Shown in pieces: positions 12,477-32,691 of a stretch of 64,000 bases of DNA. The DNA comes from Sphaerochaeta pleomorpha str. Grapes (lineage in GTDB: Bacteria > Spirochaetota > Spirochaetia > Sphaerochaetales > Sphaerochaetaceae), in NCBI RefSeq assembly GCF_000236685.1, contig NC_016633.1, forward strand, positions 1,674,001-1,738,000, read 5' to 3'. Each line of letters starts with the position of its first letter. Positions within the stretch are counted from its first letter, which is position 1. Position numbers and translations under genes: made by a program. The notes under the pieces were generated by a model. The model ran no database searches and was not told the DNA's origin. It saw nothing but the letters and a program-made list of their open reading frames with translations.

Positions 12477-13601
12477 TTAGGTTTCGTATTTTTCCTGAAT
12501 GATAATTTTGCCATATATATGCGCCAACCCAACAGAATCGAGTAAGACCGGGGAGTTTTTCAAGCGTTCCAGGTTTACCGAATCCACCAACATTTCAAGG
12601 ACCTTGCTGTCCTTCGACTGAGGGCATTGGATATCCAGCTTCTCCAATAGGGATTGGAACCAGGAAATTGCCTCGTGGGGAGTCCCATTGCAAAGCATCC
12701 GGGAAATATCTTCGAATATCGCATTGAGATATTCCTGTCCCCTTTTGTCGACGCATTTGTCCAGATTATTAACCATATACCCCCAGACCAAAGGCAAACA
12801 GATTGCAACAGCATGCCCGTGGGGGATCTTGAAAACCGACGTCAGCTTGTAGCTCATCGCATGGGGGGCCGTAGTCTGCGTTATGTTTATCGCCCTCCCC
12901 GCCCAGTTGGAGGCAAGCAACATCCCTTCGTTGGCTTGCGGCGTATTGAGCAGGTACTGGTTGTAGTGTTCTAGGAACAAGGCTACGGCCTGTTGGGAAT
13001 ATTCCCTGCTCACGGGCGTGGAATTCACCGACCACCACGATTCGATTGCCTGGCAGAGGGCGTCGAGCATAGTACATTTCTTCTGGTAAGGTGGCAATCC
13101 ATCCAAAACGCTCGGTTCAAGGATTGCATAGGAGGGAACCAGGCTGTCATGGGTGACCGACTGTTTCTCACCCTTGTAATAGATTACCGCGTACCTGGTT
13201 GATTCGCTCCCCGTCCCCGCTGTTGTTGGCAAGGCAATCAGGGGAACCTTGTTTTCCTTGTACTCCTGCCTCAGATACAGCGAACCTGACTCCATGGAAC
13301 TGAAAAGCTTGATGCACTTGGCCACATCGATACTGCTCCCCCCTCCCACGGCAACGATACAGTCGCATCCTTCCTTGCAAAAGAAATCGACTCCCTTGCA
13401 GACATCCTCATAACGCGGGTTCGGCCCGAAGGAACTGAATACCGAATAAGGGATTCCCAGGTCCCCAAAGTGCCTGGCAATTGCCAGGGAATTGAACGAG
13501 GAACCGCATACCAGCAAAAAATGCTTGCAACGGTATCCTTCCAATACGGTTTTGAGTTTCAGGCAAGAAGGGTCGCCTACAAGGATAGTCTGGGCGCTCA
13601 T
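12477..13601 (-). CDS. Phosphonoacetaldehyde reductase (iron-containing alcohol dehydrogenase family)
   Basis: 374-residue group III alcohol dehydrogenase predicted to reduce phosphonoacetaldehyde to 2-hydroxyethylphosphonate with NAD(P)H, the FomC/PhpC role. The nucleotide-binding G-G-G-S is at residues 86-89 and the motif P-T-T-A-G-T-G-S-E lies around 125-133. The metal-site region has D180, Gln184 where most iron ADHs have His, H247 and the P-H-G-H motif (261-263). The ATG overlaps the stop of the decarboxylase gene by 4 bp, coupling it to PEP mutase and the decarboxylase. That context, not the fold, gives the substrate. It is the last gene before the terminator at 12406. A close paralogue lies at 51002-52120. 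Confidence 0.85.
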   Translation of the reverse strand: MSAQTILVGDPSCLKLKTVLEGYRCKHFLLVCGSSFNSLAIARHFGDLGIPYSVFSSFGPNPRYEDVCKGVDFFCKEGCDCIVAVGGGSSIDVAKCIKLFSSMESGSLYLRQEYKENKVPLIALPTTAGTGSESTRYAVIYYKGEKQSVTHDSLVPSYAILEPSVLDGLPPYQKKCTMLDALCQAIESWWSVNSTPVSREYSQQAVALFLEHYNQYLLNTPQANEGMLLASNWAGRAINITQTTAPHAMSYKLTSVFKIPHGHAVAICLPLVWGYMVNNLDKCVDKRGQEYLNAIFEDISRMLCNGTPHEAISWFQSLLEKLDIQCPQSKDSKVLEMLVDSVNLERLKNSPVLLDSVGLAHIYGKIIIQEKYET

Positions 13602-14740
13602 ACCCTCAAGGCTCCCATGAAAGCTTCCTTGTTCTGCAGGGGTGTGGTATCGGGGCGCATAAGGTCCTCCCGGGCACCGGTGCTCACGAGTACCTGAATG
13701 AGGGCAGGTTTCGCAATGGCGCCGAGACCTGAGGCTAGCAGGACTTCCAGGTCTGCCCTCGTTTTCAAGGTTACGGCACTTGCATATCCACAGGCTTTCG
13801 CAATGGTTTCGAGGTCAACCTTTCCTGCAACGGTGGGCATTCCCCCGACCGATTCGTGGGCCTCGTTGTTCAGCACCACGTGGATGAGGTTTTCCGGTTT
13901 CATCGTCCCGATGGTAGCCAGCCCACCCATATGCATGAGTGCAGCCCCGTCCCCGTCAAGGCACCACACGGTCTTTTCACTTTCCTGCAGGGCAACTGAA
14001 AGCGCAATGGCACTTGCATGACCCATGGACCCTACGGTCAAAAAATTATGCGAGGAGTTTTCCGGTTTGTTTTTCTTGCAATACTCGAACAGCTCCCGCG
14101 ATATCTTACCGGTGGTGGAGATGACAAAATCGTCAGTCCCCATCCTCTCGGCCAGCAGCCCGATGGCTTCCTCCCTCCCAAGTTCCTCGTCATGCCCCTC
14201 AAAGGTACCGCTTCCTTTCTGGAATGCACCCTTACGGACTACCAAAGCTACGCTTTTCCCTTGTGACAGGGAAGAGGAAAATGTTTTTGAGAACTGGTTT
14301 ATGATATCTTCAAGGGTGGTTTCCTTGCTTACGACCATATGTTCTATACCCAGGACAGACAGCAACTGCTCGGTTATCTCCCCCTGCTTTACATGCTGGG
14401 GCTCGTCATGAACCCCAGGCTCACCCCTCCATCCCACCAGGTATATGACAGGGATCCCGTACACGGCTGGGTCTGTGAGGGAGGTGGCAGGGTTCACCGC
14501 ATTGCCAAGCCCGCTGTTCTGCAGGTAGACAAGGGGAACCTTACCGGTTGCCAGGTGGTAGCCGGCTGCCAGGCCCACGGCATTGCCTTCGTTCACGGAG
14601 ACGATGTGCCGCTTCGAGTTCACCCCATAGCGCCCATAGACTTCCTCACAGAAGCTCTTCAAGAGGGAATCGGGGACTCCCGTAACGAAACCTACATTGA
14701 TTGTTTCAAGATAATCCAAAAAAAGGGATGGGTCCAACAT
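13598..14740 (-). CDS. ppd: Phosphonopyruvate decarboxylase
   Basis: 380-residue thiamine-diphosphate enzyme that decarboxylates 3-phosphonopyruvate to phosphonoacetaldehyde and so pulls the unfavourable PEP mutase reaction forward. The ThDP signature runs from C-L-D-G-D-G-A-A-L to V-V-L-N-N-E (residues about 261-293). V-N-E-G-N-A-V-G near residue 51 supplies the cofactor-activating Glu, and G-V-P-D-S-L-L marks the N-terminus. The frame is open further upstream, but ATG 14740, 11 nt after the pepM stop and preceded by AGGAG at 14749-14753, is the natural start. Confidence 0.93.
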   Translation of the reverse strand: MLDPSLFLDYLETINVGFVTGVPDSLLKSFCEEVYGRYGVNSKRHIVSVNEGNAVGLAAGYHLATGKVPLVYLQNSGLGNAVNPATSLTDPAVYGIPVIYLVGWRGEPGVHDEPQHVKQGEITEQLLSVLGIEHMVVSKETTLEDIINQFSKTFSSSLSQGKSVALVVRKGAFQKGSGTFEGHDEELGREEAIGLLAERMGTDDFVISTTGKISRELFEYCKKNKPENSSHNFLTVGSMGHASAIALSVALQESEKTVWCLDGDGAALMHMGGLATIGTMKPENLIHVVLNNEAHESVGGMPTVAGKVDLETIAKACGYASAVTLKTRADLEVLLASGLGAIAKPALIQVLVSTGAREDLMRPDTTPLQNKEAFMGALRV

Positions 14741-14751
14741 GACAAATGCTC

Positions 14752-16050
14752 CTATTCTGCACCGGGTATCAATGTGATGATATCCTTGATCGACATACAG
14801 TTCTCGCTCGCTTCCTTGCACCTTCCGTTTTCCAGTATCAACTGGGCGGTACGCTGCATTGCAGGAAAGGCACTACGGATGAGATGGTTGGCATAGATGA
14901 CCACGCGTACGTTATGTTTGGCCAGCTCTTCCTCGTAGACGCTATTGAAAGAAGAGGGAACAACCACTATGGGGACATGGGGGAATTGCATCCCAAAGGT
15001 ATCGCAGAACTCGAATATCTCCGCAGGGTCTTTCTTCCGGCTATGGATCATAACCGCGTCGGCACCTGCACGGACGTAGGCACCCGCCCGTTTCAAGGCG
15101 TCCTCCATCCCCTGTTCGAGGATCAGGCTCTCGATACGGGCAATGATCATGAAATCCTTCGTCTGCTGGGCCTGTTTGCCCGCGGTTATCTTCCGGCAGA
15201 AATTCTCTATGGAATCCTGTTGCTGGGCAACCTCGTTACCGAACAGGGAATTCCTCTTGAGCCCTATCTTGTCCTCAATAATGACAGCGGACACCCCGAT
15301 GCGCTCCAGCGTCTTCACGTTGAACACGAAATGCTCGAGCAATCCGCCGGTATCGCCGTCAAGGATGATGGGCTTGGTCGTCACTTCCATGATCTGGTTG
15401 ATGGTATCGAGGCGGGAGGACATGTCGACTAGCTCGATGTCCGGCTTACCCTTGGCCGTTGAGTCGCAGAGAGAGGAAACCCACATGGCATCGAACCCTT
15501 CCAGCCTGTCTCCCTTGACAACCCGCGTATTCTCCACGATGAGGCCGGAAAGCCCGTTGTGGGCCTCAAGCACTCTGACAACCTTCTTGATCCTCAACAG
15601 GTTGGAAAGACGGCTCCGCCTGGTTTCGGGCAGGACACCTTGGGAGTCAATCTTGCCCCTCAGCTGCTCAATACTCACCCCTGCAGTATAGGGGTATTCC
15701 ACCAGTTCCCCGCCCCATTCACCGAGCAGGGCGATGACTTTTTCCCGCATCGTGCTCTGGACCCCGGTCCTCCAGTCATCCCCGTGCACCACGTAGTCGG
15801 GTTTGACCTCCCTCAGGTTCTTCTCATAGTCCAGCGTTTCCTGGACCAGGACATGGTCAACACCCTTAAGAGACCCTATAATCCCCATACGCTGCTCTAA
15901 GGGCATCAGCGGATAGCGTTTGTATTCGGCGATAGCTTCGTCGGTAAGGACCCCCACATACAGTTCCCCGAGTTCGCTTGCCTTGTTCAGCAAGTTGACA
16001 TGTCCAACATGGATGATGTCGGCACTCATCGCTACATATACTTTCTTCAT
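14752..16050 (-). CDS. pepM: PEP mutase with N-terminal cytidylyltransferase domain (Fom1-like fusion)
   Basis: 432-residue bifunctional protein. Residues 1 to about 135 form a nucleotidyltransferase of the glycerol-3-phosphate/phosphocholine cytidylyltransferase fold, with an H-V-G-H motif (14-17) and V-V-H-G-D-D-W (87-93). Residues about 150-425 are PEP mutase: G-D-T-G-G (232-236) and the diagnostic [10 protein letters not shown] (259-268), which separates mutase from isocitrate-lyase relatives. PEP mutase makes 3-phosphonopyruvate from PEP. The same fusion is known in Fom1 of fosfomycin producers, whose N-terminal domain forms CMP-hydroxyethylphosphonate. With a hydroxyethylphosphonate-type reductase two genes on, CMP activation of that compound is the best inference. 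The nucleotidyltransferase gene ends 9 bp upstream. Confidence 0.93.
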
Positions 16051-16059
16051 CTTTATATC

Positions 16060-16782
16060 CTATACCTTGAACCCAAGAAGTCCCCTGGCCCTGGCCAGGT
16101 CCTCCTGGTTGTCCACTTCCATGCACAGCAAACCTTTTGCATCATAGGTTCCCAACTGAACCCTTCCCAGTATCGAATTGAGGGCATTCTCTGCATATAC
16201 ATTGGTCTGTCCCCCAAGGCAGAAAGAATGTATCGCCCCCTGCCAGGCAGCCCAATCGGTACCGAGAAGCTTATACAGAGGCTGGCATGCAAGGCAACCA
16301 TCCCCGAACACATCGATGCCTATCTGCTTCACCAGCCCATCGTCACCTATCCTGGCCTTGAAATCCTTCTCGGGAATAGGGGCAAGGGAATCGACGACCA
16401 CCGTACTCTTGGGAGCCTCCATGACAGACTGAAGAACCTCACCCGAGAACAACAGGTCCCCGTGCATCAGAAGGATATCTGATGGGAAAACCATGCTACA
16501 AAGCTTATCCAGTGATACTATGTAATTCGTGGTATCGTATTCCTCGTTATAGACAAACCTGATGGCCATTGAAGGATACTTGTCCTGCAGGTATTGCTTT
16601 ATCTTGCCTTCGAGATATCCTGTCGTGATGATAATATCGGTTATCCCGCACTCAGCCAGGCGGTCAATCTGCCTTGACAGGAGGGTGTTCCCAGAGTCCA
16701 AGGCAACAAGGCATTTTGGATTGCTGGTTGTCAGTTCCTTCAGGCGCGAGCCTTTGCCTGAATTCAATATAATTGCTTGCAT
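16060..16782 (-). CDS. LicC/PntC-like nucleotidyltransferase
   Basis: 240-residue nucleotidyltransferase of the GT-A-like fold. The signature N-S-G-K-G-S-R-L-K (residues 7-15) with N-P-K-C-L precedes E-E-Y-D-T-T-N-Y-I-V-S-L and a late C-M-E-V-D-N-Q-E-D-L, as in LicC (phosphocholine cytidylyltransferase) and PntC (2-aminoethylphosphonate cytidylyltransferase). It lies 9 bp before the PEP mutase/cytidylyltransferase fusion, so the cassette holds two candidate CTP-using enzymes. One may activate the phosphonate and the other a polyol or choline-like head group. Which does which cannot be decided from sequence. Confidence 0.85.
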   Translation of the reverse strand: MQAIILNSGKGSRLKELTTSNPKCLVALDSGNTLLSRQIDRLAECGITDIIITTGYLEGKIKQYLQDKYPSMAIRFVYNEEYDTTNYIVSLDKLCSMVFPSDILLMHGDLLFSGEVLQSVMEAPKSTVVVDSLAPIPEKDFKARIGDDGLVKQIGIDVFGDGCLACQPLYKLLGTDWAAWQGAIHSFCLGGQTNVYAENALNSILGRVQLGTYDAKGLLCMEVDNQEDLARARGLLGFKV

Positions 16783-16826: not shown

Positions 16827-18053
16827 TCACAACCCCAGTTCTTTTTGTTTTGCTGCTAGATAGTCAACAATCTTTTCTCCACTATGTCCGCGAAACTGCC
16901 AAGCAGTTTCCTTTGCTTGCAGTCGGTTTTTGGTAAGAGTCTCATTTTGCACAGTATCAAGTAACACCTCTTTGATAGTAGGAAAACTGCTCTCTATCAG
17001 CTCAACGCCAATCTCTGGCAAAATCTTAAACTTCCAAGGCTCTTCATCTATACTTCCCCCATCATAAGGCCGATCATCAAAATTCGCATTGACATACAAA
17101 AATGGACGATCTAATAAGAAAGAGTAATCAAAAATGACCCCTGAGAAATCTGAAATCATGATATCAGATCGAAAAAGTGTTCCAATATTTTCCCTAGAAT
17201 AATTCCACTCAAGATTACTACTTGACGCATACCGTCTCTGCAATCTCTCTAAAACAGCTTTCTCTGATTGTATAGATTGAGGATGAGGACGTACAATAAT
17301 TTGGAAACCGGTCTCCACAAGTGGATCAAGCAAACGCTCTCCATATTTACTCAGAATCCCATTACTTCCCCAAGAAGGAGCTACAAGAACGGTAAATAAG
17401 TGGTTCTCATCTGGCTCAAAGGTAGAAAGTTGTTGATTGAGCATATCCAAATACGTGCATCCGACCACAACAAGTTCTTTTTTCGCTATTCCCCGTTGCT
17501 CTTCTAAAATGCGAATATGGGCTTCTTGATATGTACCTGAAAGAAATACTGAATCAAAATAATCCAATCCGAAGAGTCTATATGAAGTAGCATCGGCCAC
17601 AGAATGGAGAACATGGGCATAATGTTTGACCCCCCTTGATCTCTTAAGCTGGTAGACATCAAGGCCTGGGGTGGTCATAAGGCAGATATCAGCCTCAAGA
17701 AAGTTCAGACGAGTGAAAGCCTTATTCCCTTCCCCGATAAATTCACCGTTTATATAGGAATATGGGTTCGAAAAGAACGGGTCTTTCTCAGCTGATGTAA
17801 AATACATGACAGAAATTTGTCTCTTCTCGAAGGCGTCAAGGATAGGTTTGAAAACACTCCAGTATCGCTCACTCTCAGAGTAGATAACAAAAGGATACCT
17901 ATTCTTATTTGAAGCAACAGCCTTTCCTCCGGTGAGAAAAAATTTGACCTTTATCAGCGCTGCCTTGGCAACAAAATAGAGCATGGTAACTAAACCAATG
18001 ATGATAGAGAACAACATACTTCCCGTTCCGGGATCTATATACAACAGCAACAT
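16827..18053 (-). CDS. Membrane-associated CDP-glycerol glycerophosphotransferase-like protein
   Basis: 408-residue protein of the TagB/TagF family, enzymes that move polyol-phosphate groups from CDP-activated donors onto glycans. One N-terminal hydrophobic segment (Y-I-D-P-G-T-G-S-M-L-F followed by an I/L/V-rich stretch) should anchor it. The GT-B-like core has V-A-P-S-W-G-S-N, I-V-R-P-H-P-Q and D-I-M-I-S-D-F-S-G-V-I-F-D-Y near 300-325, the usual C-terminal CDP-binding region. It lies 14 bp after the YidC/LTA-synthase-like gene and just before the nucleotidyltransferase/pepM genes. It could therefore use either a CDP-polyol or a CMP-phosphonate donor. Confidence 0.82.
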   Translation of the reverse strand: MLLLYIDPGTGSMLFSIIIGLVTMLYFVAKAALIKVKFFLTGGKAVASNKNRYPFVIYSESERYWSVFKPILDAFEKRQISVMYFTSAEKDPFFSNPYSYINGEFIGEGNKAFTRLNFLEADICLMTTPGLDVYQLKRSRGVKHYAHVLHSVADATSYRLFGLDYFDSVFLSGTYQEAHIRILEEQRGIAKKELVVVGCTYLDMLNQQLSTFEPDENHLFTVLVAPSWGSNGILSKYGERLLDPLVETGFQIIVRPHPQSIQSEKAVLERLQRRYASSSNLEWNYSRENIGTLFRSDIMISDFSGVIFDYSFLLDRPFLYVNANFDDRPYDGGSIDEEPWKFKILPEIGVELIESSFPTIKEVLLDTVQNETLTKNRLQAKETAWQFRGHSGEKIVDYLAAKQKELGL

Positions 18054-18067
18054 ATGTAAAAACCACC

Positions 18068-20797
18068 TTACTTAACGATAATAGGACTCCAATTAGTTTC
18101 AATGGAGATGTCATCATGAACCGTAAAACTTCTTGAATAATCAAAGGAAAATTGGGTTCCAAGGTTTTTCTTGGGATCCCAGGAACCGGTATAAACCTGG
18201 ACCTTTTGCTTCTGGACACTTTCTAGAAGGTTCTTTCCCGTAAATGGGTTCACTTTCGAAACTTCTAGATTTTCAATGGCGAGCTGAGGAAGGTCAGCAT
18301 TGGTCATAAAAGTGGAATCTGTCCTTAGTCTATCTTTTGAATTGAAATCCTTAACGAGAAGCAAGGGGTTATACCTACTATAGTCGTTCATGGCATTATC
18401 GAAATCTTTAAATAGCGGGTTGAATAAATCCTTGCCGTGGTCCGCAACGATAAAAATACGAGTATTATCATACATCCCGTCTTTTTTTAATTTTTCAAGC
18501 CATATGCCAATACGCTTGAGGGCAGCAACATAGACATGGTAGGTGGCAATATCTTTTTCACTAAGCCTAGTCATTTCATCAAAAGGAGTAGAGATATCTG
18601 TTACCCTACTTCGTGGTTCATACTCCGGAGCCTGTAAGAAGACCGGGCTATGAGCTGTTTGATTATCTATAAATGTATAGGTGTTTCCTTCGGCTGTATA
18701 ATCAGTAATGGAATCCAGATAATAAAGAGTCGAATATGAATTTAAAAAAATATCAATATCTTGCGAATTTTCATCCACTAAGAAATATCTGCCAGTATCA
18801 TATATCGTTTTTCTAAGCAAAGGTGCCAGGGCCTTCATCAGGGAAAACATAGGAAGACGCTTTTTTATGATTTTGCTTTCAGCATTTGTATTCCAATCCA
18901 AGACGTCACTGAAATCTTTCTTATATTGGACAGCATATTTTCCTTGAATATTCATTACCTTAATTTCAGGATATGGCTTGAAAGGAGTATAATCACCTTC
19001 CCACTTATAATTACAGAATGGAGGATCAGTTACGGTGACAGAATATCCTGCATCGAGAAAAAGCTTAGGCAAAACGAGGGTAGCCTCATTATGTTTATCT
19101 ACAAGTTTTTCGTTATCCCGTTTATTGATTTCTCCTGGGGTATACTCATAGCCTCCCATCATTGCAGGGGCCCCATATAAAGTATCAGTACCAAAGGATA
19201 CAGTATTCGGGTAATAAACAAATCCATCCAGCTGTTCTCTCAATTCTGGAATTTGTTCAAGGGCATAGGGGAAATAAGCATTAATAGCGCGATCAAGGAA
19301 GAGAACTACTACGTTCTTTCCTTCTTTTGAAAGATGAAAAACAGGTTTCAATCCCTCTACATCACTTCCTTTTGCTTGATTTTCCAACACATTCTGTTTG
19401 TGTTCCGTAAATTCCTTCTGAATGGTCATAGTATTCAACATACTTGCAGCTAAAGTGGTGATGGAAAGAATGAGGAACAAACCAGAGAGGATTTTATACC
19501 GTCGTTGCTTTACAAGCACCCCACATATGATAAAACATATCACTCCCACCAAAAAAGGAATTACTATAAGAGAGAGAGACGGGGTCAATACTGTAGGATT
19601 CTCAAACTCAAGATGAGTACTTACAGTCCCATAATTCCCTCTGAACAAAAACACATTGAAAAGCGATACGAGGGATAAGCACGCAAACAGATATGCAATT
19701 ATGGCTTTTGCTTTCTTCGAAGCTAACGCATAGATGGCTGAAGGCCAAACACAACAGATTCCAAAGAAAATGATAGCAGTTGAATACACATAGGACAAAG
19801 GGTTTTCCACATTACCGAGAAATGAGAATTCAATAGTTGAAGATGAAATAAGGTTGGAAGGAATTAAAAGCCCACAAAGGGCCCAAAGAATAAGACAAGA
19901 AAGAACAAACAGGAGATTCCTTCCTTTACGATTCTCTGCAAGGCTAGCAAGAAACGTAATATACATAAAATCAATGAAACGGAGAAACAAAGGGATAATA
20001 AGTATTGCGATACACCCTCCGATAAGTACTATTCTATTGGCAAAAGATAAGGAGGGGTGTGCAATACTAATTGCGACAGTTATTCCAATAGATGCAAAAA
20101 CAGCACAACCATATAAGGCCTTGAGAGGACTCTTCAACCTATAGAAACAATTCTTTACCAGCGAGAAAATATTATTCAAAGTCCAGTAATAGACCAACCC
20201 TGCAGGGGAATTATAGAGCAGGATCATAAACAAGCCAGCCATACCATACAGCTGTACTTTATCCCGCAGGGGAAATCCTTTGCTATAAATAATTCCGGCA
20301 ATTACATTGATAGCGGTCATCAATATCGGCAGGACATTGAAAGAAATGCCACCGATAGTAAGAAGTCTGTCTGGTTGTCCTAAGTCTGAAAGAAAAAAGA
20401 AGCTCTGGCCTTGCAACTGGGAAAGATTGGATAGGAAATGATAGGCTGCAATAAAAAAAGGGACCTGAATCATCAAACTGATGGAGCTTCGGAGAGCATA
20501 TGCAGGATGATAATGATTCTGCCTATAGTAGGTAGAGAGAATCATGTACTGCTCATCACCTTTGAATACAGCCTTGATCCGATCAATACCAGGTTTCAGC
20601 TTTATACGGATATCCCGTTCTCTCCTCTGGAGGGAATCGGCAATATTATACAGAGGTAAGGCAAGAAGACTAATAACGATACTAATCCCAGCTATCGCAA
20701 TCCCGCTATTATCAAAGCTTTTTAAAAAGAAAACATAAATTAATTCAACCAATAACTCTAAAGGATAAACTACTATATTATAAATAAAAGCACCCAT
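18068..20797 (-). CDS. YidC/Oxa1-like membrane domain fused to LTA-synthase/sulfatase-like domain
   Basis: 909-residue inner-membrane fusion. Residues 1 to about 225 resemble the YidC/Oxa1 insertase core: a helix ending in L-P-L-Y, a basic amphipathic loop with L-K-P-G-I-D-R-I-K, then M-I-Q-V-P-F-F-I-A-A and a late helix with N-S-P-A-G-L-V-Y-Y-W. Further membrane helices follow to about residue 460. From about residue 495 an alkaline-phosphatase-superfamily domain begins (V-V-V-L-F-L-D-R-A), with S-F-G-T-D-T-L-Y-G as probable nucleophile region and I-F-I-V-A-D-H-G-K-D as metal site. Such domains move phospho-head groups onto polymers (LtaS) or transfer phosphoethanolamine. I know of no characterised protein with this architecture. 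Position beside phosphonate genes suggests export-linked head-group transfer. Confidence 0.8.
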   Translation of the reverse strand: MGAFIYNIVVYPLELLVELIYVFFLKSFDNSGIAIAGISIVISLLALPLYNIADSLQRRERDIRIKLKPGIDRIKAVFKGDEQYMILSTYYRQNHYHPAYALRSSISLMIQVPFFIAAYHFLSNLSQLQGQSFFFLSDLGQPDRLLTIGGISFNVLPILMTAINVIAGIIYSKGFPLRDKVQLYGMAGLFMILLYNSPAGLVYYWTLNNIFSLVKNCFYRLKSPLKALYGCAVFASIGITVAISIAHPSLSFANRIVLIGGCIAILIIPLFLRFIDFMYITFLASLAENRKGRNLLFVLSCLILWALCGLLIPSNLISSSTIEFSFLGNVENPLSYVYSTAIIFFGICCVWPSAIYALASKKAKAIIAYLFACLSLVSLFNVFLFRGNYGTVSTHLEFENPTVLTPSLSLIVIPFLVGVICFIICGVLVKQRRYKILSGLFLILSITTLAASMLNTMTIQKEFTEHKQNVLENQAKGSDVEGLKPVFHLSKEGKNVVVLFLDRAINAYFPYALEQIPELREQLDGFVYYPNTVSFGTDTLYGAPAMMGGYEYTPGEINKRDNEKLVDKHNEATLVLPKLFLDAGYSVTVTDPPFCNYKWEGDYTPFKPYPEIKVMNIQGKYAVQYKKDFSDVLDWNTNAESKIIKKRLPMFSLMKALAPLLRKTIYDTGRYFLVDENSQDIDIFLNSYSTLYYLDSITDYTAEGNTYTFIDNQTAHSPVFLQAPEYEPRSRVTDISTPFDEMTRLSEKDIATYHVYVAALKRIGIWLEKLKKDGMYDNTRIFIVADHGKDLFNPLFKDFDNAMNDYSRYNPLLLVKDFNSKDRLRTDSTFMTNADLPQLAIENLEVSKVNPFTGKNLLESVQKQKVQVYTGSWDPKKNLGTQFSFDYSRSFTVHDDISIETNWSPIIVK

Positions 20798-20893: not shown

Positions 20894-22069
20894 TTAATTA
20901 CTAACCTGGGAACTTCCAATGCTATAGTAGTCTAATTTTCTCACAATAAACCTACAGACATCTTCACTTGCCTGTCCTGTTTCCCGAGTTTTATAGAAAT
21001 CGAGTATCTGTTCACAATTTTCCTTGCTATCACGATGCGGAAGATCCTTAAGAATTGAAATTAGTTCTGCTTGCGTCTGGGCAATCCAAAAGGGTGAATT
21101 ATCCAAATCGAAATAGAAAGCCCTGTCATGTGCAAGGTAGCTTTCCCTGTCATCTTGAAAGAGAATCAGAGGACGCTTGGTGAGGGCAAAATCCCCGGCA
21201 CTTGAAGAATAATCAGTTATAAGGATATCAGCAATTTGCAACAGGTCTGCCATATCCTCATGGGAAGATACATTGATGATTCTCGTAGATTCCGGTATTC
21301 CACCCAAACCAATTACTTTGTTATGGGCACGAACCAACATGTTCCATTTCACTCCTGTGGAATGTTCAAGAGCATCGAGAACTGCAATCATATCAAATTC
21401 TTGGACTTCTTGATTCTCCTTTGAATGGGTGGCCTTTCGCCTCAAGGTAGGAGCATAGAGAATATATTTTACCTCTGGATCGAATGAAAGCATACGTTTT
21501 GTCTGGTTCACTGATTCCTTATCAATGTGGACTAATTTGTCATTCCGTGGAGTACCAGTCTTTAATATCTCACCAGTATACCTGAATGCCGATCGGAAAA
21601 CAGACTCAGCAAAATCAGACCCGGCCAAAGTTAAATCACACGTAGTTGTTTCGGGTAATTGATTCTTCTTTGAACGGGGATTACAGTCATTCAAAATCTT
21701 CTTGAAGCCTCTGTCACCGTGCCACGTCTGGATATATATCTGGTTCTTCCCTTTATAGGCCCAATAGGGCTGAGTATCGTTAAATACCCAGATCCGTGCC
21801 GTAGCAAGCTCATAGACAGCACGTAAACTCCATCGTTTTGCAATCTTTAGATAGGAAGGAACCAACGTTCGTTTCTGTTCAGGGTTGTTGAATAGCCAAA
21901 TTTGTTCTATGGAAGGATCCATGACATGCAAGTGTTCCGATATTGCCTTTGGGTTGTCAGAATAGGAACCGCCAGAAAAACTGCAAAACACCACTTTACG
22001 GGGATTTAGGGGAAGCATTGCATGAACGAGATGCATTAAACCAAGTTTTAATTTTATTGAATTAAACAT
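20894..22069 (-). CDS. CDP-glycerol glycerophosphotransferase family protein (TagF-like)
   Basis: 391-residue cytosolic/peripheral transferase. K-V-V-F-C-S-F-S-G-G-S-Y-S-D-N-P-K-A near the N-terminus, I-Q-T-W-H-G-D-R-G-F-K-K near residue 125, I-L-Y-A-P-T-L-R-R and D-I-L-I-T-D-Y-S-S near 285 are classical TagF/TagB signatures. Predicted to add glycerol- or ribitol-phosphate units from a CDP-polyol. The ATG at 22069 is preferred over longer in-frame starts because it overlaps the flippase stop by only a few bases, as expected in a coupled operon. 96 bp separate it from the YidC-fusion gene. Confidence 0.9.
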   Translation of the reverse strand: MFNSIKLKLGLMHLVHAMLPLNPRKVVFCSFSGGSYSDNPKAISEHLHVMDPSIEQIWLFNNPEQKRTLVPSYLKIAKRWSLRAVYELATARIWVFNDTQPYWAYKGKNQIYIQTWHGDRGFKKILNDCNPRSKKNQLPETTTCDLTLAGSDFAESVFRSAFRYTGEILKTGTPRNDKLVHIDKESVNQTKRMLSFDPEVKYILYAPTLRRKATHSKENQEVQEFDMIAVLDALEHSTGVKWNMLVRAHNKVIGLGGIPESTRIINVSSHEDMADLLQIADILITDYSSSAGDFALTKRPLILFQDDRESYLAHDRAFYFDLDNSPFWIAQTQAELISILKDLPHRDSKENCEQILDFYKTRETGQASEDVCRFIVRKLDYYSIGSSQVSN

Positions 22070-23543
22070 TGCCTTTTCTCGCTTTCTTCTTACGAAGTAC
22101 TGCAAATGCATCTTGTATCGATCCTCGGTTTGCCAGATAGACAATGCTGAGAAAAACCAAAAGAACAACAGCCTTGTAGACAATATTGCCAAATGAAATT
22201 ACATTTGCATACCGTGTATAACTAAAATAGAGACCAGTTACAAGAAACAACACCGTAAGCAATGACAATCCAATAAAATGGCCAATATTGTACCCTATTT
22301 TATCAAACTTATTGGAAATCCAGACAACAATACCAACCCTGATAACCATCGCAATGGCATCAGCTGCAACGGACCCGTACATCCCATATTTTTGAATTAA
22401 AAAGTATGATAAGGCTACATTAACCAGGCTACTGGTTACCGTTGCCGTGAATATATATTTTGATGCCTTTTTATAATAAAAGAGAATATTTATATAAAAA
22501 TAATAAGGGGTCTTCAGGGAAAACGTGATAACAATCAGCGGAACCAGTTTCCAGGATTCTTCATATTGTGAGCTTGCCATGAGCACAATCAACTCCTGAC
22601 AAAAAAGACCTACGCAAAGGAATAAGAAACTATAAAACCAAACCAAGACACTGGATAAATCAACTATTTGTTTTCTGTCGAAACCTTTTTTATTCATCTG
22701 GTCGTAGAACCATGGTTGAAAAGCCGCGTTGACAGAGCTTTGCACCAAATCGGCCAAGGAACCAAAACGGCTTGCAAGGCTAAACAAACCGACAGAAGCC
22801 AAAGACGAAGTTCCATTGATAAAGACCTTGGAAACAAACTGGGCAATCTGGGTCGATAGGTTATGGGGAATTATCGGAATGGAATAACTGAGAGTTTCTT
22901 TTAAAATTGTCTTGTCGAGGCAAAACCGAATGAGATGAAGCCGCTTCAAATCAAAAAGCATCCAGATACATGCAAGGGAGCTGCTTATTACCAAAGAGAG
23001 CAATACTCCGTTTGCCCCCCAGCTAAAGAAAGCGACGAACAAGATATTTAATATTACCTGCAGAAAGAAATAGGAAATACTGACCATTGCAGATTTCCTT
23101 GCTTCCTGCATTCCCTTCAAAATGTCTTGATAAATCGTATAAAGACTGGTGAAGACCAAGGCTATCAGCGCCATGAGCACTGAAGGGTAGAAATCAACTC
23201 CCTGGAACAAGAATTTTGCCAATACATTCTTAAGCAATAGAGCCAGGATAAAAAACACACAGCCCGACAGGAACACAAAGCAAATCACCGTTCCGAAAAA
23301 AGTCCTGACTTTTTCAAGGTCATGCTTATAATCCGCATAAAACCTTATAACTGCCGAGTATAGGCTAAAGGCAATGATATAGGTGGAAACCGCAGAAAAA
23401 CTCGACAGCAGGTTAATAACACCATAGTCAGTCGTAGTGAGAAAAACGGTATACAGAGGCAACAATAAGAAGTTGAAGGCTTTCAACAAAATATTGTTAA
23501 ATGTATAGATGAGTGAGTTTTTAAGAACCTTTTTATTTGTCAT
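22062..23543 (-). CDS. Polysaccharide flippase (Wzx/MOP superfamily)
   Basis: 493-residue protein with about 12-14 hydrophobic helices, the size and profile of Wzx-type lipid-linked oligosaccharide flippases. The N-terminal T-N-K-K-V-L-K-N-S-L-I-Y-T-F-N-N with Y-G-V-I-N-L-L-S-S is typical of the family. It should flip the lipid-linked repeat made by this locus for the polymerase encoded just upstream (23605-25710). It overlaps the TagF-like gene and is one of three flippases in the window. Confidence 0.92.
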   Translation of the reverse strand: MTNKKVLKNSLIYTFNNILLKAFNFLLLPLYTVFLTTTDYGVINLLSSFSAVSTYIIAFSLYSAVIRFYADYKHDLEKVRTFFGTVICFVFLSGCVFFILALLLKNVLAKFLFQGVDFYPSVLMALIALVFTSLYTIYQDILKGMQEARKSAMVSISYFFLQVILNILFVAFFSWGANGVLLSLVISSSLACIWMLFDLKRLHLIRFCLDKTILKETLSYSIPIIPHNLSTQIAQFVSKVFINGTSSLASVGLFSLASRFGSLADLVQSSVNAAFQPWFYDQMNKKGFDRKQIVDLSSVLVWFYSFLFLCVGLFCQELIVLMASSQYEESWKLVPLIVITFSLKTPYYFYINILFYYKKASKYIFTATVTSSLVNVALSYFLIQKYGMYGSVAADAIAMVIRVGIVVWISNKFDKIGYNIGHFIGLSLLTVLFLVTGLYFSYTRYANVISFGNIVYKAVVLLVFLSIVYLANRGSIQDAFAVLRKKKARKGNV

Positions 23544-23604
23544 GCAATAGTATCCCTCAGTTCAATCGAAAAGCTCTCTTTAGCAAGACAGACTCTCAAG
23601 GAAT

Positions 23605-25710
23605 TCATTTATTGGTCATTCTTTCTGGCAATGCCAACCAACTTCCAAGAAGCAAGTCGTATTGTTCAGGTTCAAATTCTACAAACCCTGAAAAATGGAA
23701 AAATGTCAATTCACCAAAAAGGATCGTGTCATTTGCATCAATATAGAAATCGACACGTACGTGGGGCATCCCTGCAGACAAAACCCTTGCAAGGGAAAGC
23801 ATTTTTTCCCACTGTTGAGGTTTGGGAATATCATAGGTGCTATTTGGATAATGCTGAATAAGGGGAATTCTGTTCCAATCAACGTCAAAATAGTCAAATT
23901 TTGTGGTTTTCCCTCTATCCGAAGCTACAAAAGCAAATTTGGGTATCCCGTCAAAACAAAATATTTTATAATCCCTAGGAGGGTTTCCATCAGAAGTTTC
24001 GATTAGCTGTTCACATACAATTCTTGGCTTCACATCTTTATAAGGCCATTCCCTATCATACCAATAGTAGTTTTTCCCCATCCAAGCATGCATCTCACCT
24101 ATGGCAGCATCCCTGTTCAACTTTGCTTTGTCCCTACAGATGATTACATCCCCAGAAGTCTGGGTAGGTTTCAACACAAAAGCATCGGGAAGTGAATCAA
24201 AATCAATATCGTCAACTTTGTCATAGACCCCAATAAGAGGGATAAGGTATTCAGAGCCAATCGTATTGGCTATATGTTCCCTTACCTCATATTTGTCGAC
24301 AAGCTTTGTATACATCTCTTTTCTATCATAGAGCTTCAGCCACTGGAGTTTCTCGTTATACGTCTTTGGATTTTTAAGGTCCAGCTTCTTTTTAAGCGAC
24401 ATACGATATTTTATGGTTACAAAGGTTTTATCAGAAAGTAGCCGGGCAACTTTCCATTTTAGCATATGCAATACCAAAAGACGCGGACTACTGACCCATT
24501 CCTTCGCCTTTCTGAAAATATGCTCGAGGCTTTTACCTGAGTTTGCATCCCTTCTGGCTACACCAACATAACATAATGCAAGCAGTATTGTTGGCAACTC
24601 CTCATTGAATGTAACCCTTCCTAGGTTGTCGACTAACATGACAAGAAGAAGCGTTACAGATAGAATCGTTCCATTCTGCATCCTTCTCATAAAAAACATT
24701 TTCAAGCCTTTCGCCAAAAGCAAAAGAGGAAGCAAATAATACCAGAGGGTGCCAACAATACCCAAGGAAACAAGCAATTCGATGTAATTATTATGGGCAT
24801 AGACACTGAAGCCACCGACATTGGTAAAAGCCCCATATCCCCAACCAAAGAAAGGTTTCTCTTTAAACATTTCCCAGCCGCGAACCATCATCTCCATCCT
24901 GATCGAAGTGCTACTGCCCGATTGCCCCTCAGTAGGATAGACGAAAAAGGTTTCTATCTGACGTCCGCAAATTCTGTATAGGGGTTCCCATTTCATGGAT
25001 AGGTACAATACAGAAATGATTAGAAAAGCTACAATTCCAAACGATAAAAAGGAACGCTGGAGATTTTTTCGGGTAAGAAAAAACAGAAGCACACTGCCAA
25101 TGATAAGTATTGCTATCATTTTCCCGGAACCTGAGAAAAGACTCAGAAAACTGAAGGCAATGAAGATGATTCCAAAATACCATTTTTTGGCATCAAGAAA
25201 ACGATATAGCGCTACCAAGCCAGTCATAGAGAACAAATAGCCAACAGTATTTGCATTAATAGCTATAGTCTCACCCAAGCGTCTTGTTACAAAATCCTGA
25301 AATGGAGTTTTTATAACCAAGCGGACAACTACCACAAAAGTTGCAAAAAATAAACAATTCAGAAAAAATCTATAGTTTCTCTCTGACTCGAGTATATAGG
25401 CAATAAGCAAATTGGCAAAAATCATTACCTGAAGTATGGAAATTGCCCCATCCAATGCAAGAGAACTGCTAGTTGCGTACAATAGGGAACAGAAAGAAAG
25501 AGCAATAAACCCCAGGCTCCAAAAAGCGAAGGTGGTGAGTTTAGATTTTAAAACTAGAAATCTGATTCCAAAAACCAGGATAAACAATATCTCTACAGGT
25601 AGAAATACCTTGTGGTTGTTAAGACCAAAAGCCATAAGGATACTGAGAAAAACCAAAAGGGATATATCACAAAAAGTATCAAATACTTTGTGATTGTAAA
25701 TTGAATTCAT
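23605..25710 (-). CDS. O-antigen polymerase/ligase fused to TupA-like ATP-grasp domain
   Basis: 701-residue fusion. Residues 1 to about 410 form a polytopic membrane region with the Wzy/WaaL-type motif G-W-G-Y-G-A-F near 300, followed by a Y-A-H-N-N-Y-I-E-L segment, marking the O-antigen ligase/polymerase family. Residues about 440-695 form a cytosolic ATP-grasp domain like TupA: P-K-T-Y-N-E-K-L-Q-W-L-K-L, V-D-K-Y-E-V-R, D-Y-K-I-F-C-F-D-G, H-V-R-V-D-F-Y, F-G-E-L-T-F-F. TupA-like proteins are linked to adding amino acids or peptides to uronic acids. ATG 25710 with GGGAG 6 nt before it is preferred over the ATG five codons upstream. A stand-alone TupA lies at 35447-36334. Confidence 0.85.
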   Translation of the reverse strand: MNSIYNHKVFDTFCDISLLVFLSILMAFGLNNHKVFLPVEILFILVFGIRFLVLKSKLTTFAFWSLGFIALSFCSLLYATSSSLALDGAISILQVMIFANLLIAYILESERNYRFFLNCLFFATFVVVVRLVIKTPFQDFVTRRLGETIAINANTVGYLFSMTGLVALYRFLDAKKWYFGIIFIAFSFLSLFSGSGKMIAILIIGSVLLFFLTRKNLQRSFLSFGIVAFLIISVLYLSMKWEPLYRICGRQIETFFVYPTEGQSGSSTSIRMEMMVRGWEMFKEKPFFGWGYGAFTNVGGFSVYAHNNYIELLVSLGIVGTLWYYLLPLLLLAKGLKMFFMRRMQNGTILSVTLLLVMLVDNLGRVTFNEELPTILLALCYVGVARRDANSGKSLEHIFRKAKEWVSSPRLLVLHMLKWKVARLLSDKTFVTIKYRMSLKKKLDLKNPKTYNEKLQWLKLYDRKEMYTKLVDKYEVREHIANTIGSEYLIPLIGVYDKVDDIDFDSLPDAFVLKPTQTSGDVIICRDKAKLNRDAAIGEMHAWMGKNYYWYDREWPYKDVKPRIVCEQLIETSDGNPPRDYKIFCFDGIPKFAFVASDRGKTTKFDYFDVDWNRIPLIQHYPNSTYDIPKPQQWEKMLSLARVLSAGMPHVRVDFYIDANDTILFGELTFFHFSGFVEFEPEQYDLLLGSWLALPERMTNK

Positions 25711-25826
25711 TAATCTCTCCCACATTCTGCTTCGATGTGAACAGGCCCCAATAATTTGTTCATTATCGCAATATTCCAGTATTGCTTCAAGGAAGAATCA
25801 TTTTATTTACTCATCTTTCCTTCTTC

Positions 25827-26930
25827 CTACTTGTAGGCGGTAATTGTTTCCTCTATGGTATCCAACCATTTTTTACATATCTGTCTGCTATCCAATTCAT
25901 TCCGTACACAAAGAGCATTGCGACTCATTTCGAAAGCAAGTTTTGGATTCTCAATTATGAAAAGCATGGCTTCAGCCAAGGCTTTCTCATTAAAGCGGGG
26001 AACTACAAGACCATTCTTGTTGTTAATCACCAAAGTCCCCCGACCTTCACTGTAATCGGTAGTAACGACAGGAAGCCCCATCGCCATAGCTTCAATCAAG
26101 GCATTGGGCATCCCTTCGAAATTGGAGGACATTACAAACATATGGGCTTTCTGAAGCTTGGGAAAAATTGAGGACTCAATTCCTGGCAAGGATACAGAAG
26201 ATTCCAGATGCAATGAGGAAATTAACTGTTCCAGCTGCATACGTTGATCGCCCTCACCGTAGATCGTCAAAGTACACTGTGGATGTTTTTCATGGACCAA
26301 AAAAAACGCTTTTATCAACAATTGCTGGTTTTTCTGTTTTGAAAGTCTTCCCGCAGACATAATCTCCATTGTGTTGTTGATTCCTGTGTTCGGGGAAGGA
26401 AGATCTTCCAAATACAGCGGGTTAGGAATAACCACCCCTCGAAAGCTGTCTCTCCGGTAATAATAGGTCTTCGCACTTTCCGTCTGGAACACAGCGCGAT
26501 AAGCAAACTTATGATAGGCAAACCTGATAACTTTCTTTTCCAGATTACTGAACGATTGAGTGGTGTTTGGATCATTCCGTTCTGACAAGAGAATCGGTAT
26601 TTTCAAACCAGCACAAGCAAAAGCGGTCAATGAACCGCTATAGGACATCATACCCAAAACAAGGCTCGGTTGGATTTTCTTGATAGTATTTCTTATTTGC
26701 TTGATCAGGGCACGATATCGTACCAAGGGGTTTTTGCTCTCAGAGGGGTCCAGTTGGATATAATGCACCAAACCTGCAAGCGGGTAGGCCGGTTCTGTCT
26801 TGGTCAGAGATATCAGATAGATATCCTTGTTACAGGAAACAAAGTAATTTGACAAATAGGCGGTCACCCTCTCAGCTCCGCCAAAAGACATACCGGTAAT
26901 GACAATGGCTATTTTGTTGTTTTCATTCAT
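25827..26930 (-). CDS. Glycosyltransferase family 4
   Basis: 367-residue GT-B glycosyltransferase. The N-terminal G-M-S-F-G-G-A-E-R-V acceptor loop and the C-terminal F-E-G-M-P-N-A-L-I-E-A-M-A-M-G-L-P-V-V motif (EX7E) place it in GT4, retaining enzymes using nucleotide-sugar donors. It should add one sugar to the lipid-linked repeat on the cytoplasmic face. Donor and linkage are not predictable. Confidence 0.92.
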   Translation of the reverse strand: MNENNKIAIVITGMSFGGAERVTAYLSNYFVSCNKDIYLISLTKTEPAYPLAGLVHYIQLDPSESKNPLVRYRALIKQIRNTIKKIQPSLVLGMMSYSGSLTAFACAGLKIPILLSERNDPNTTQSFSNLEKKVIRFAYHKFAYRAVFQTESAKTYYYRRDSFRGVVIPNPLYLEDLPSPNTGINNTMEIMSAGRLSKQKNQQLLIKAFFLVHEKHPQCTLTIYGEGDQRMQLEQLISSLHLESSVSLPGIESSIFPKLQKAHMFVMSSNFEGMPNALIEAMAMGLPVVTTDYSEGRGTLVINNKNGLVVPRFNEKALAEAMLFIIENPKLAFEMSRNALCVRNELDSRQICKKWLDTIEETITAYK

Positions 26931-26965
26931 TTTCTTTAATTACTCACCCCTAACGAAAAAAAGAC

Positions 26966-26999
26966 TGAAAAAGGCTTGGAACCATAATTATCAGGTTCC
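26966..26999 (-). terminator. Terminator-like hairpin between SDR and GT4 genes
   Basis: GGAACC (26978-26983) and GGTTCC (26994-26999) enclose a 10-nt loop. On the minus strand the stem is followed a few bases later by a T5 run. It is probably a leaky attenuator inside the operon. Confidence 0.35.
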
Positions 27000-27077
27000 G
27001 AGTGCAGGGCCTTCATCAGTCCCCCTCTCAAGTTTCACTATTCTCTAGTCCCTCAAAGTAAATGTCAACAAGCCCTT

Positions 27078-28151
27078 CTATTGCATAAAATCCTTTTCCT
27101 CTCGCAAACTGGCCACCAGTCTCTGGTAAGCTTGTTCAAGGTTTACCTCGGCATGCCATCCCAGGGCATTCATTTTCCCTGAACTCAGCCTTAGCTTGGT
27201 ATCAGGGGCATAGCCAAGGTTTTTATCCTGGGGAGGAATATCGAAGATGACTTTAATAGTATTGTTTGCAATAGAACAGGCTACAAGCGAAGCCATTTCT
27301 GCAATGGTCATGCTCGTCTCTTCGTTCACGATGGTGTAAGCGTCACCGGGAGCCCCATGGAATAGAAGTGTCACAATTGCCTTGATCGCATCACTAAGGT
27401 AACAGTAGTTTCCTACCGACTGACCTGTAGTATGGAGTACGATGTCTTTGCCAGTAAGGGCACTTCTGGCAAACTGGGCAAATACCCTGTTTTCCTGTTT
27501 CCCGATTCCAGGGCCAAAGGTCTGGGCAAGCCGGGCAATAGTGACAGGAACCCCATATTCTATGTAATAGGAATGGCACATACATTCAACCAACCGCTTG
27601 CTTTCCGAGTAACTGCTACGGACATTGAGGATGTCGATGGAGCCAAGGTCCTTCTCGGTGGTGCGCTGCTCAGACTCCTCCACCCTTCCATACACTTCCA
27701 TGGAGGAGAGATAGACCATAGCAAGTACTTGTTGTTGTTTGGCAAATTCCAAGAGATTTCGAGAACCAAGGACTGTGGTTTCAATTGTCTCTACAGGATG
27801 GGAGACAAACAAAGAGGAGGTAGTTATCGACGCTGCATGGACAATAAAGTGTACCGGCACTTCAAGATGCAAAGGGGTGAGAATATCATGACGTAAAAAA
27901 GTCAGAAAAGGATCATCATAAAAGGATCCAAAAAGATCCTTGGCTTTTTCCTTGTCCCTGACAAGACCGATGATCGTGATGGGTTGCCCAGGCCCCCGGT
28001 TATACGTCACTACGGCCTTGATAAAAGCAGAACCTATCAAACCGGTTGCACCGGTAACCAAGATTGTTTTACCAGACAAGCGAGAAAGATCTGCATAACC
28101 GGCAATCGAAGCAAGGTCAGCCTTTTCCTGGGTAGATATAAAAGAGGGCAT
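27078..28151 (-). CDS. NAD-dependent epimerase/dehydratase (extended SDR)
   Basis: 357-residue extended short-chain dehydrogenase. V-T-G-A-T-G-L-I-G-S near residue 33 binds NAD and the catalytic pair appears as Y-S-E-S-K. It is packed against the IspD-like cytidylyltransferase (1-bp gap) and LicD. A cytidylyltransferase next to an SDR is known in CDP-ribitol synthesis, for example as a fused enzyme in Haemophilus capsule loci. A role in making or reducing a polyol phosphate is possible, but a nucleotide-sugar epimerase is equally compatible. Confidence 0.82.
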   Translation of the reverse strand: MPSFISTQEKADLASIAGYADLSRLSGKTILVTGATGLIGSAFIKAVVTYNRGPGQPITIIGLVRDKEKAKDLFGSFYDDPFLTFLRHDILTPLHLEVPVHFIVHAASITTSSLFVSHPVETIETTVLGSRNLLEFAKQQQVLAMVYLSSMEVYGRVEESEQRTTEKDLGSIDILNVRSSYSESKRLVECMCHSYYIEYGVPVTIARLAQTFGPGIGKQENRVFAQFARSALTGKDIVLHTTGQSVGNYCYLSDAIKAIVTLLFHGAPGDAYTIVNEETSMTIAEMASLVACSIANNTIKVIFDIPPQDKNLGYAPDTKLRLSSGKMNALGWHAEVNLEQAYQRLVASLREEKDFMQ

Positions 28152-28152
28152 A

Positions 28153-28875
28153 TCAGTTCACCCCGAAGACCAAGGAAGACTCCTTGGCTTCCAGGATTGC
28201 CCTGAAAATATAGTAATCGATGGGAGTGGTAATCTTTATGTTGTCGGCAGGACCTTGGACAGTATGCAATACCTTGCCTTGGCTCAACATCAAAGAGGCG
28301 GAGTCAATGAAGGTATAATTTCCCGAAGCAAGGGCATTGTTGTGGGCAGAGAGTATATCGTGCAGATAAAAACACTGGGGTGCCCGTGCCAGTGAACAGA
28401 GATTCCTATCGATTGTTCTGGTCACTTCCTGTTTATCATTGGTCTCAATGATAGTTTCGATTGCCGGGGCAACGGTAATTGCAGAACCATACTCTTGTGT
28501 GCTTTGAATACAAGAAGAGATAAGATCTGGGCCTAAAAGAGGCCGAACCCCATCGTGTAACAACACGATAGAATCATCAGCGCAAGAAGAAGAAACGGTC
28601 TGTAAACCGATATATTGTGATTCCATTGCGGTCTTTCCGCCGGGGACTATCCATCTGACCTTTGAAAAGCCTTCTTTCTTAACCAATTCTTCTACAAAAT
28701 TGCACCATTCCTTGATGCAGATAATGCAGATTGCATCTATCTTTTCATGATTCTCAAAACATTCGAGGGTGTATTGGATAATGGTTTTCCCGAACACTGG
28801 GAGAAATTGTTTAGGGGTGGTTTTACTGTTCATACGGGTACCAGTTCCACCAGCAAAAATCAAGGCAATATTCAT
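28153..28875 (-). CDS. IspD/TarI-family cytidylyltransferase
   Basis: 240-residue cytidylyltransferase with the family motifs A-G-G-T-G-T-R-M (residues 7-14), P-K-Q-F-L-P-V and L-L-H-D-G-V-R-P-L. It could be TarI (D-ribitol-5-phosphate to CDP-ribitol) or IspD (isoprenoid pathway). Placement between an SDR and LicD in a glycan operon with three CDP-polyol transferases favours TarI-like activity. ATG 28875 with AAGGA 7 nt upstream is preferred to a longer in-frame start inside licD. Confidence 0.85.
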   Translation of the reverse strand: MNIALIFAGGTGTRMNSKTTPKQFLPVFGKTIIQYTLECFENHEKIDAICIICIKEWCNFVEELVKKEGFSKVRWIVPGGKTAMESQYIGLQTVSSSCADDSIVLLHDGVRPLLGPDLISSCIQSTQEYGSAITVAPAIETIIETNDKQEVTRTIDRNLCSLARAPQCFYLHDILSAHNNALASGNYTFIDSASLMLSQGKVLHTVQGPADNIKITTPIDYYIFRAILEAKESSLVFGVN

Positions 28876-28885
28876 TCCATGTTCC

Positions 28886-29692: not shown

Positions 29693-30058
29693 GGGGATAC
29701 AACTCCTTGTAATGAAATCAAAAGCAATAACAACAACTGCCAAAGATTATAATCACGCAAGTATACAAAATTCCATAACAGAGGGGAACCAGTAACCAAA
29801 GTGCCTTCCCCCCCCTTTTTTCATAGGGAAGTAATAATACATCAAGCCAATAAGAAAGGCATTTCAATCCTTTCGTTGTATCACAGGCTATGTATTTTAC
29901 CTAATAATTATAGGAAATATTTTGTGAAATTTCACCATGCCTATGCATCAACGAATAGTATCCTCTGTACAGCAATACCTTATAGGCAAAAAAAACTGAC
30001 CCAAGTTCTCAGTAAACCCAGGTCAGCATTCATGCAAAAACGATGTTTTAAAAGCTTT
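29693..30058. other. Gap between licD and the glucuronate epimerase gene
   Basis: No gene supported. It contains the terminator of the upstream epimerase gene (29988-30026) and about 290 bp in which a promoter for the licD-to-phosphonate segment would be expected. I did not identify reliable -35/-10 boxes. Confidence 0.4.
29988..30026 (-). terminator. Rho-independent terminator after the UDP-glucuronate epimerase gene
   Basis: On the minus strand CTGACC pairs with GGTCAG (30021-30026 and 29996-30001 on the plus strand) and is followed directly by a run of eight Ts. It lies 33 bp past the stop at 30059. It divides the large locus into at least two transcription units. Confidence 0.8.
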
Positions 30059-31069: not shown

Positions 31070-31087
31070 GGGTGTGGTTCCTTCTTA

Positions 31088-31119
31088 TAAAAAAGGGGAA
31101 GACATATATATTCTTCCCC
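31088..31119 (-). terminator. Rho-independent terminator after UDP-glucose dehydrogenase
   Basis: GGGGAAGA (31095-31102) and TCTTCCCC (31112-31119) form a perfect 8-bp stem with a 9-nt loop. On the minus strand the stem is followed by T6. It lies 27 bp past the stop. Confidence 0.88.
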
Positions 31120-31145
31120 TGGTAAAAATCACTATGGATGTAGTT

Positions 31146-32438: not shown

Positions 32439-32691
32439 TTCATGCTCCCGAAATTCAACTTGGAAACCAGGTAAGACAAGCGTGGCTTTCAGATATCTAG
32501 GATACATGAAAAACAGTAATAAGTCAGCTTCAATTGTGAAGAGAATCAAAGAAAGAGCTTTTCATCGGTAAGAGACCTGCTTTTATTATCCTTTTCGATT
32601 ACTCAGATTTATCAACCGCTTTTGTCAAATACAATATGAAGAAAGAATCATTCCAAAGACCACATACTCCTGTAATTACTAGCTAATCGCC

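Follow-up and report, generated by a model that had tools for sequence, protein, structure and literature searches.

A YidC-like module fused to a PbgA/EptA/LtaS-like phosphotransferase-type unit: a conserved protein family of spirochaetes and gut Bacillota

A 909-residue protein of Sphaerochaeta pleomorpha joins a YidC-like module, through a two-helix linker, to a PbgA/EptA/LtaS-like unit of five transmembrane (TM) helices and an extracytoplasmic alkaline phosphatase (AP)-superfamily domain. It is encoded on the minus strand at 18068–20797 of the window (the whole stretch of 64,000 nucleotides that was analysed), according to the reading frame, Pfam, alignments, models and structure searches. 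The protein belongs to a real, conserved family, undescribed in the literature searched, that combines two known kinds of protein. From sequence and predicted structure we tentatively propose, with confidence a little short of even, that the fusion is a membrane transferase that puts a small phospho- or phosphono-group on a surface glycan and carries its own YidC-derived lipid-handling module. An insertase fold may here have taken on a new task, that of passing lipids on to an enzyme; a scaffold or flippase-like role for it had been suggested in the original prediction.

The frame of 909 codons runs from an ATG at 20797, preceded by GGAG, to a stop at 18070–18068. The original prediction of a single 909-residue frame with a YidC/Oxa1 core and an AP-superfamily domain was correct, and the strand, which had not been given, is the minus strand. 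A chance frame or a misassembly is ruled out, because many genomes encode full-length homologues that are about as long and have their domains in the same order; 18 homologues were aligned with the window protein. In Pfam, PF02096 (60KD_IMP) matches residues 32–219 (E 2e-20, 73.8 bits against a cut-off of 35), and PF00884 (Sulfatase) matches residues 494–834 but barely clears its threshold (E 4.6e-6, 26.6 bits against 25). The NCBIfam model of the YidC C-terminal domain scores 81.8 bits, just below its cut-off of 84.3. The V-A-D-H-G motif corresponds to residues 784–788.

According to the hydropathy and charge analysis, EH1 and the five YidC TM helices are followed by the two helices of the linker and by another five TM helices; two of the YidC helices lie below the hydropathy threshold used and were taken from the predicted structure. 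All parts are on the minus strand. Residues 1–222 (20132–20797) form the complete YidC/Oxa1 core with EH1, five TM helices and the C1 cytoplasmic hairpin, with no P1 domain (PF02096, model and VIA-align). Residues 223–288 (19934–20131) form the two extra TM helices that join the modules, as seen from hydropathy, loop charges and the model helices. Residues 289–455 (19433–19933) form the five-TM domain of the transferase unit, according to the alignment of PbgA (6xlp) to model residues 289–909 and the TM count. Residues 493–909 (18071–19321) form the catalytic domain (PF00884 and VIA-align). The cytoplasmic loops are rich in Lys and Arg, whereas the outer loops have 0–1 such residues. Because of this strict positive-inside pattern, the placing of the catalytic domain outside the membrane, and thus extracytoplasmic catalysis, is well supported; the outer location had also been assumed in the original prediction.

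The full-length model (19 sequences, mean pLDDT 85.2) has a modest pTM of 0.64, and we make no claim on the relative placing of the modules. The first 228 residues were modelled separately (88 sequences, mean pLDDT 90.1, pTM 0.82). The top nine Foldseek matches of this N-terminal model in the PDB are all YidC. By VIA-align, the model gives Z 17.9 over 209 residues against Bacillus halodurans YidC (3wo7) and Z 17.1 against Escherichia coli YidC (6al2). Apart from a mitoribosome-bound chain at 11.9, which we take to be OXA1L, every match with Z above 6 is YidC; the next match, outside YidC/Oxa1, is at 5.9. According to the model, the N-terminal module certainly has a true YidC/Oxa1 fold. The separate prediction, Foldseek and VIA-align together confirm the fold that had been suspected from the sequence, and the lack of a YidC-like fold is excluded.

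The position of E. coli Arg366 in the groove is occupied by Ser43 (20669–20671, minus strand; alignment of 88 cores). This position is Asn, Ser, Thr or Gln in all 88 fusion cores, never Arg or Lys, so that the positive charge in the hydrophilic groove, a mark of YidC insertases, is absent from them. In 51 canonical cores, the same position is Lys or Arg in 43, Asn in four, Tyr in two and a gap in two. The six uncharged canonical YidCs (Asn or Tyr) are all clostridial. The canonical Bacillota YidCs at L167, L169, L170, L172 and L174 have Asn or Tyr at this groove position, which is said to be strictly Arg or Lys in all homologues. The role of the positive charge is to maintain a hydrophilic groove, and E. 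coli YidC is functional without the arginine provided that a polar or aromatic residue occupies position 517 (PMC8920935). The loss of Arg/Lys was dropped as proof of lost insertase function, as the clostridial canonical YidCs also have Asn or Tyr and E. coli tolerates the loss. At the position matching E. coli 517, Trp205 is invariant in the fusion. Thr161, Asn164, Gln182, Asn208 and Lys215 are near-invariant polar residues of the fusion module, and Asn164, Gln182, Asn208 and Lys215 are among those atypical of canonical YidC.

A tree built by a quick method from 91 fusion and 47 canonical cores places the fusion cores on one side of a branch with an SH-aLRT support of 100 and a length of 2.44. 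By sequence, the fusion YidC domains are a family and clade of their own, apart from canonical YidC. The entire five-TM core, EH1 and the C1 hairpin are shared with the YidC/Oxa1/Alb3 insertases, whereas the long branch and the uncharged groove position differ from them, the module is fused to, or encoded beside, a phosphotransferase, and the C-terminal tail of canonical YidC is replaced by further TM helices. The S. pleomorpha genome also encodes a separate canonical YidC of 614 aa, and a canonical YidC is present in nearly all fusion-bearing genomes. Caution is needed with PF02096 proteins, which may not all be insertases.

The best Foldseek matches of the full-length model in the PDB are PbgA (first), MCR-1 and EptA. 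By VIA-align, the catalytic domain gives Z of about 19–21 against phosphonate monoester hydrolases, sulfatases, LtaS, LtaP, YejM and MCR-1, and PbgA is aligned from residue 289 onward. The expected likeness of the C-terminal domain to LtaS and EptA structures was found, and it extends to PbgA and MCR-1. Five TM helices followed by an extracytoplasmic AP-superfamily domain with a conserved Thr, Asp and His set are common to the fusion and to PbgA/YejM, EptA/MCR and LtaS/LtaP. The fusion differs from these proteins in the additional N-terminal YidC core, the two linking TM helices and a dedicated partner gene. Asp502 (19292–19294), Thr539 (19181–19183), His716 (18650–18652) and Asp786-His787 (18437–18442, all minus strand) are unvarying in 92 of 92 full-length sequences. 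In the model, Asp502 is located at a strand end, Thr539 caps the helix 539–548 at its N-terminus, and Asp786 follows a strand, as expected for the AP superfamily. Thr539 is the putative nucleophile, and Asp502, His716, Asp786 and His787 are the putative metal ligands. The reference residues are Thr280, His383 and His453 of EptA, Thr300 and His476 of LtaS, and Thr302 of YejM (PMC7576196). From its motif and model position, as distinct from a superposition, Thr539 is probably the equivalent of EptA Thr280, LtaS Thr300 and YejM Thr302. The first metal position is Asp in the fusion, whereas it is Glu in EptA and LtaS. In YejM/PbgA, the first metal position is Asp, and Arg451 of YejM is located at the position of EptA His453 and LtaS His476 (PMC7576196). 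The conserved residues support a complete transferase-type active site in the fusion, with a nucleophilic Thr and an Asp/His metal site.

A second gene (16827–18053, minus strand) begins 14 bp past the fusion gene. According to Pfam and the neighbour counts, it encodes a near-obligate partner of 408 residues with an N-terminal membrane anchor (YIDPGTGSMLFS) and a C-terminal PF04464-like transferase domain. The PF04464 match is weak (1.5e-7), and the NCBIfam search of the partner gave no match. In comparison with the TagF-type CDP-glycerol glycerophosphotransferases (PF04464), the partner shares this C-terminal similarity but is short, membrane-anchored and has a Y(I/L)DPG(T/S)GS motif. Its donor and acceptor are presumed from the same weak similarity. 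The partner is by far the commonest neighbour of the fusion (76 of 99 loci; some loci are duplicated, and the counts are not all independent). The pairs that are adjacent on the same strand (n = 74) have a median gap of 0.5 bp. Among 247 spirochaete genomes, the partner is present in 56 of the 59 that bear the fusion; three have the fusion alone and three the partner alone (Fisher p 6e-48, a value that ignores genome kinship and overstates independence).

The other neighbours in the window, also on the minus strand, include an NTP (cytidylyl) transferase-like protein (16060–16782, PF12804/PF00483), a PEP mutase (14752–16050, TIGR02320 above cut-off) with an N-terminal cytidylyltransferase domain (PF01467) as in Fom1, and a phosphonopyruvate decarboxylase, ppd (13598–14821, TIGR03297 above cut-off; the true start is probably downstream of 14821). 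An iron alcohol dehydrogenase (12477–13601; PF00465, no equivalog at cut-off) is a putative phosphonoacetaldehyde reductase that would give 2-hydroxyethylphosphonate. On the other side of the fusion gene, a CDP-glycerol:poly(glycerophosphate) glycerophosphotransferase-type enzyme (20894–22192, PF04464 6.5e-72) is followed by surface-polymer genes (22062–34215): two PF01943-type flippases, a Wzy_C/TupA protein, a glycosyltransferase, epimerases, an IspD-like cytidylyltransferase, LicD and a UDP-glucose dehydrogenase. The neighbours named in the original prediction are thus in place, with PF04464 proteins on both sides (one weak, one strong) and pepM, ppd and the iron alcohol dehydrogenase downstream, and the presumed context, with CMP-activated head groups and genes for surface polymers, is supported. 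O-antigen-ligase-like Wzy_C and TupA-like ATP-grasp domains lie in one 706-aa frame (23605–25725). The IspD-like cytidylyltransferase adjoins LicD at 28153–29743, which suggests a second CDP-polyol or head-group route.

Fom1 makes CMP-HEP and has the N-terminal PF01467-type domain on a PEP mutase (PMC6697681). Because the PEP mutase in the window has the Fom1-like domain and the iron alcohol dehydrogenase is adjacent, the likely product of the cassette is CMP-2-hydroxyethylphosphonate. The pepM gene is found in 19 of the 59 fusion-bearing spirochaete genomes, where 7.6 are expected (p 3.7e-6 over 247 genomes; kinship is ignored, which overstates independence), whereas 40 of the 59 are without it. 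The suggested co-occurrence with pepM is therefore above expectation but partial, an obligate phosphonate function of the fusion is ruled out, and the closest companion is the 408-residue partner. The phosphonyl-tailoring (Pnt) loci, such as that of PntC in Treponema denticola, likewise combine a PEP mutase and a phosphonopyruvate decarboxylase with cytidylyl activation to serve surface glycans (PMC6697681). The main text of that paper names neither a YidC nor a sulfatase protein, and pepM is missing from two thirds of the fusion-bearing spirochaete genomes.

In other loci, an enzyme that makes a CMP-activated group (PntC/AEPT, an NTase with a CobD-like domain, pepM or an NTase) lies within five genes of the fusion in 34 of 50 well-flanked loci. 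A frequent neighbour is a PntC-like cytidylyltransferase fused to a 2-AEP aminotransferase (TIGR03301 above cut-off). The second commonest is an NTase of about 600 aa with a CobD/HisC-like PLP domain (below cut-off; L054:4170–5978, L025:5744–7555, L034:6555–8231 and others), which may make CDP-ethanolamine from phosphoserine without phosphonates. At L105:3132–7400 and L182:127–4371, an NTase without the CobD-like domain has an ABC importer and a solute-binding protein as neighbours, which suggests uptake of the head group in place of synthesis.

Split forms were also found. At L183 (8556–12434), a YidC-like gene of 238 aa, the partner and a 607-aa PF00884 protein (1.5e-8) come one after another as separate genes, and these adjoin pepM, ppd and PntC/AEPT. 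The triad at L184 (5733–9847), which is less sure, consists of a YidC-like gene of 286 aa, the partner and a protein of 594 aa that resembles the AP protein of L183 and has no Pfam match of its own. The fusion catalytic HMM gave no match to the AP-type proteins of L183 and L184. At L185 (10709–19546), two fusions and a partner gene precede a tandem series of several separate YidC-like/AP gene pairs, the later ones of which are perhaps partly decayed. The split YidC-like proteins score about 176–268 bits to fusion cores versus 77–100 to canonical ones, and they group with the fusion cores (FastTree support 0.84). These triads and pairs indicate that the YidC-like module, the partner and an AP-type enzyme travel together, fused or not.

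In the proposed transferase scheme, a CMP-activated head group would be made in the cytosol by the neighbouring enzymes, and the membrane-anchored partner would transfer the group from CMP to a lipid acceptor in the inner leaflet. Next, the YidC-like module would use its polar groove to let the lipid head group cross to, or reach, the outer leaflet, and Thr539 in the extracytoplasmic domain would take the phosphorus group and hand it to the glycan. The group added in S. pleomorpha would most likely be 2-hydroxyethylphosphonate. The architecture, the sidedness, the intact active site, the YidC module as one clade with an altered groove, the near-obligate partner and the split-gene forms come out of the computation; that the donor is lipid-linked, which molecules act as donor and acceptor, and that the groove flips lipid are what we infer here. 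The known extramembrane enzymes of this type, EptA, MCR and LtaS, take their group from a lipid, and thus the crossing of a CMP-linked head group, which the original prediction had allowed, is unlikely. These enzymes function without a YidC-like module, which counts against the scheme, as does the PF00884 match that barely passes; the CMP-X enzymes might also serve cytoplasmic transferases only, with the fusion using ordinary phospholipids. Lipids are scrambled by reconstituted E. coli YidC (PMC10491306), and this in vitro activity makes donor flipping by the derived module plausible by analogy. A more specific reading makes the YidC-like module a translocase dedicated to head groups, which feeds the fused transferase and is served by a cytosolic lipid-charging partner; this reading is less likely than not. 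If it is true, an insertase fold would have been adapted in evolution to carry a lipid-linked donor through the membrane straight to the transferase, giving a flip-and-transfer machine. With a groove joined to an enzyme that would need an outer lipid head group, the fusion family makes the lipid use of a YidC-type groove testable in cells, and it is a candidate for the missing last step by which spirochaetes and gut Clostridia decorate their surface glycans with head groups and phosphonates.

The YidC-like module may still be an insertase or chaperone that inserts or assembles the many-helix transferase domain or the membrane-anchored partner. Its true fold with EH1, the C1 hairpin and five TM helices would suit this role, as would the still polar groove with Trp205 at the position that lets E. 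coli YidC work without arginine (PMC8920935). However, we regard it as rather unlikely, as canonical YidC is kept in nearly all the genomes and further TM helices stand in place of the canonical tail. In addition, the module and partner at L183 (probably also L184) lie beside an AP enzyme of another subfamily, and thus the module is not tied to a single client. Alternatively, the module might only dock the transferase, as a passive scaffold without a transport role of its own, to the partner or the polymer exporter. This agrees with the near-obligate partner, the overlapping gene ends and the separate adjacent genes in other loci, but the near-invariant polar residues (Thr161, Asn164, Gln182, Asn208 and Lys215) seem to go beyond what docking needs, and this role is unlikely. 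It is very unlikely that the catalytic domain is a PbgA/YejM-like phosphatase or lipid sensor that controls polymer or lipid synthesis. PbgA is the first Foldseek match and both have Asp at the first metal position (PMC7576196), whereas His716 and the Asp-His pair, of the EptA/LtaS kind, are invariant in the fusion, YejM has Arg451 in place of such a His, and the fusion is linked to makers of CMP-activated groups.

Spirochaetes commonly carry the fusion, whereas its occurrence in Bacillota is patchy. A scan of the genome collection with the catalytic-domain alignment gave at least 591 pattern matches, and at least 558 were confirmed as catalytic-domain relatives. Spirochaetota and gut Bacillota account for most of the best 79 loci, and the rest belong to Actinomycetota or to a few MAGs with other labels; these loci contain 91 frames longer than 800 aa with all three parts, and the shorter frames mostly run off contig ends. 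The 59 fusion-bearing genomes come from a set of 247 from spirochaetes, each at least 85% complete, and a few of the matches may represent split or divergent versions. In a Lachnospiraceae-centred sample, the fusion is present in one of 249 genomes, the centre genome itself. A mobile or phage origin is rejected: no relative was found on viral contigs, the YidC matches in phages and plasmids are at the canonical level only, PADLOC gave no match and PHROGs gave just a weak match of unknown function. Searches of the open-access literature found no paper describing the fusion and no described function for the family. The statement that no protein of this design is characterised holds within that literature, but the design is widespread and not isolated. 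One Saccharofermentans MAG (the L107 genome, G140) has about ten copies of the fusion.
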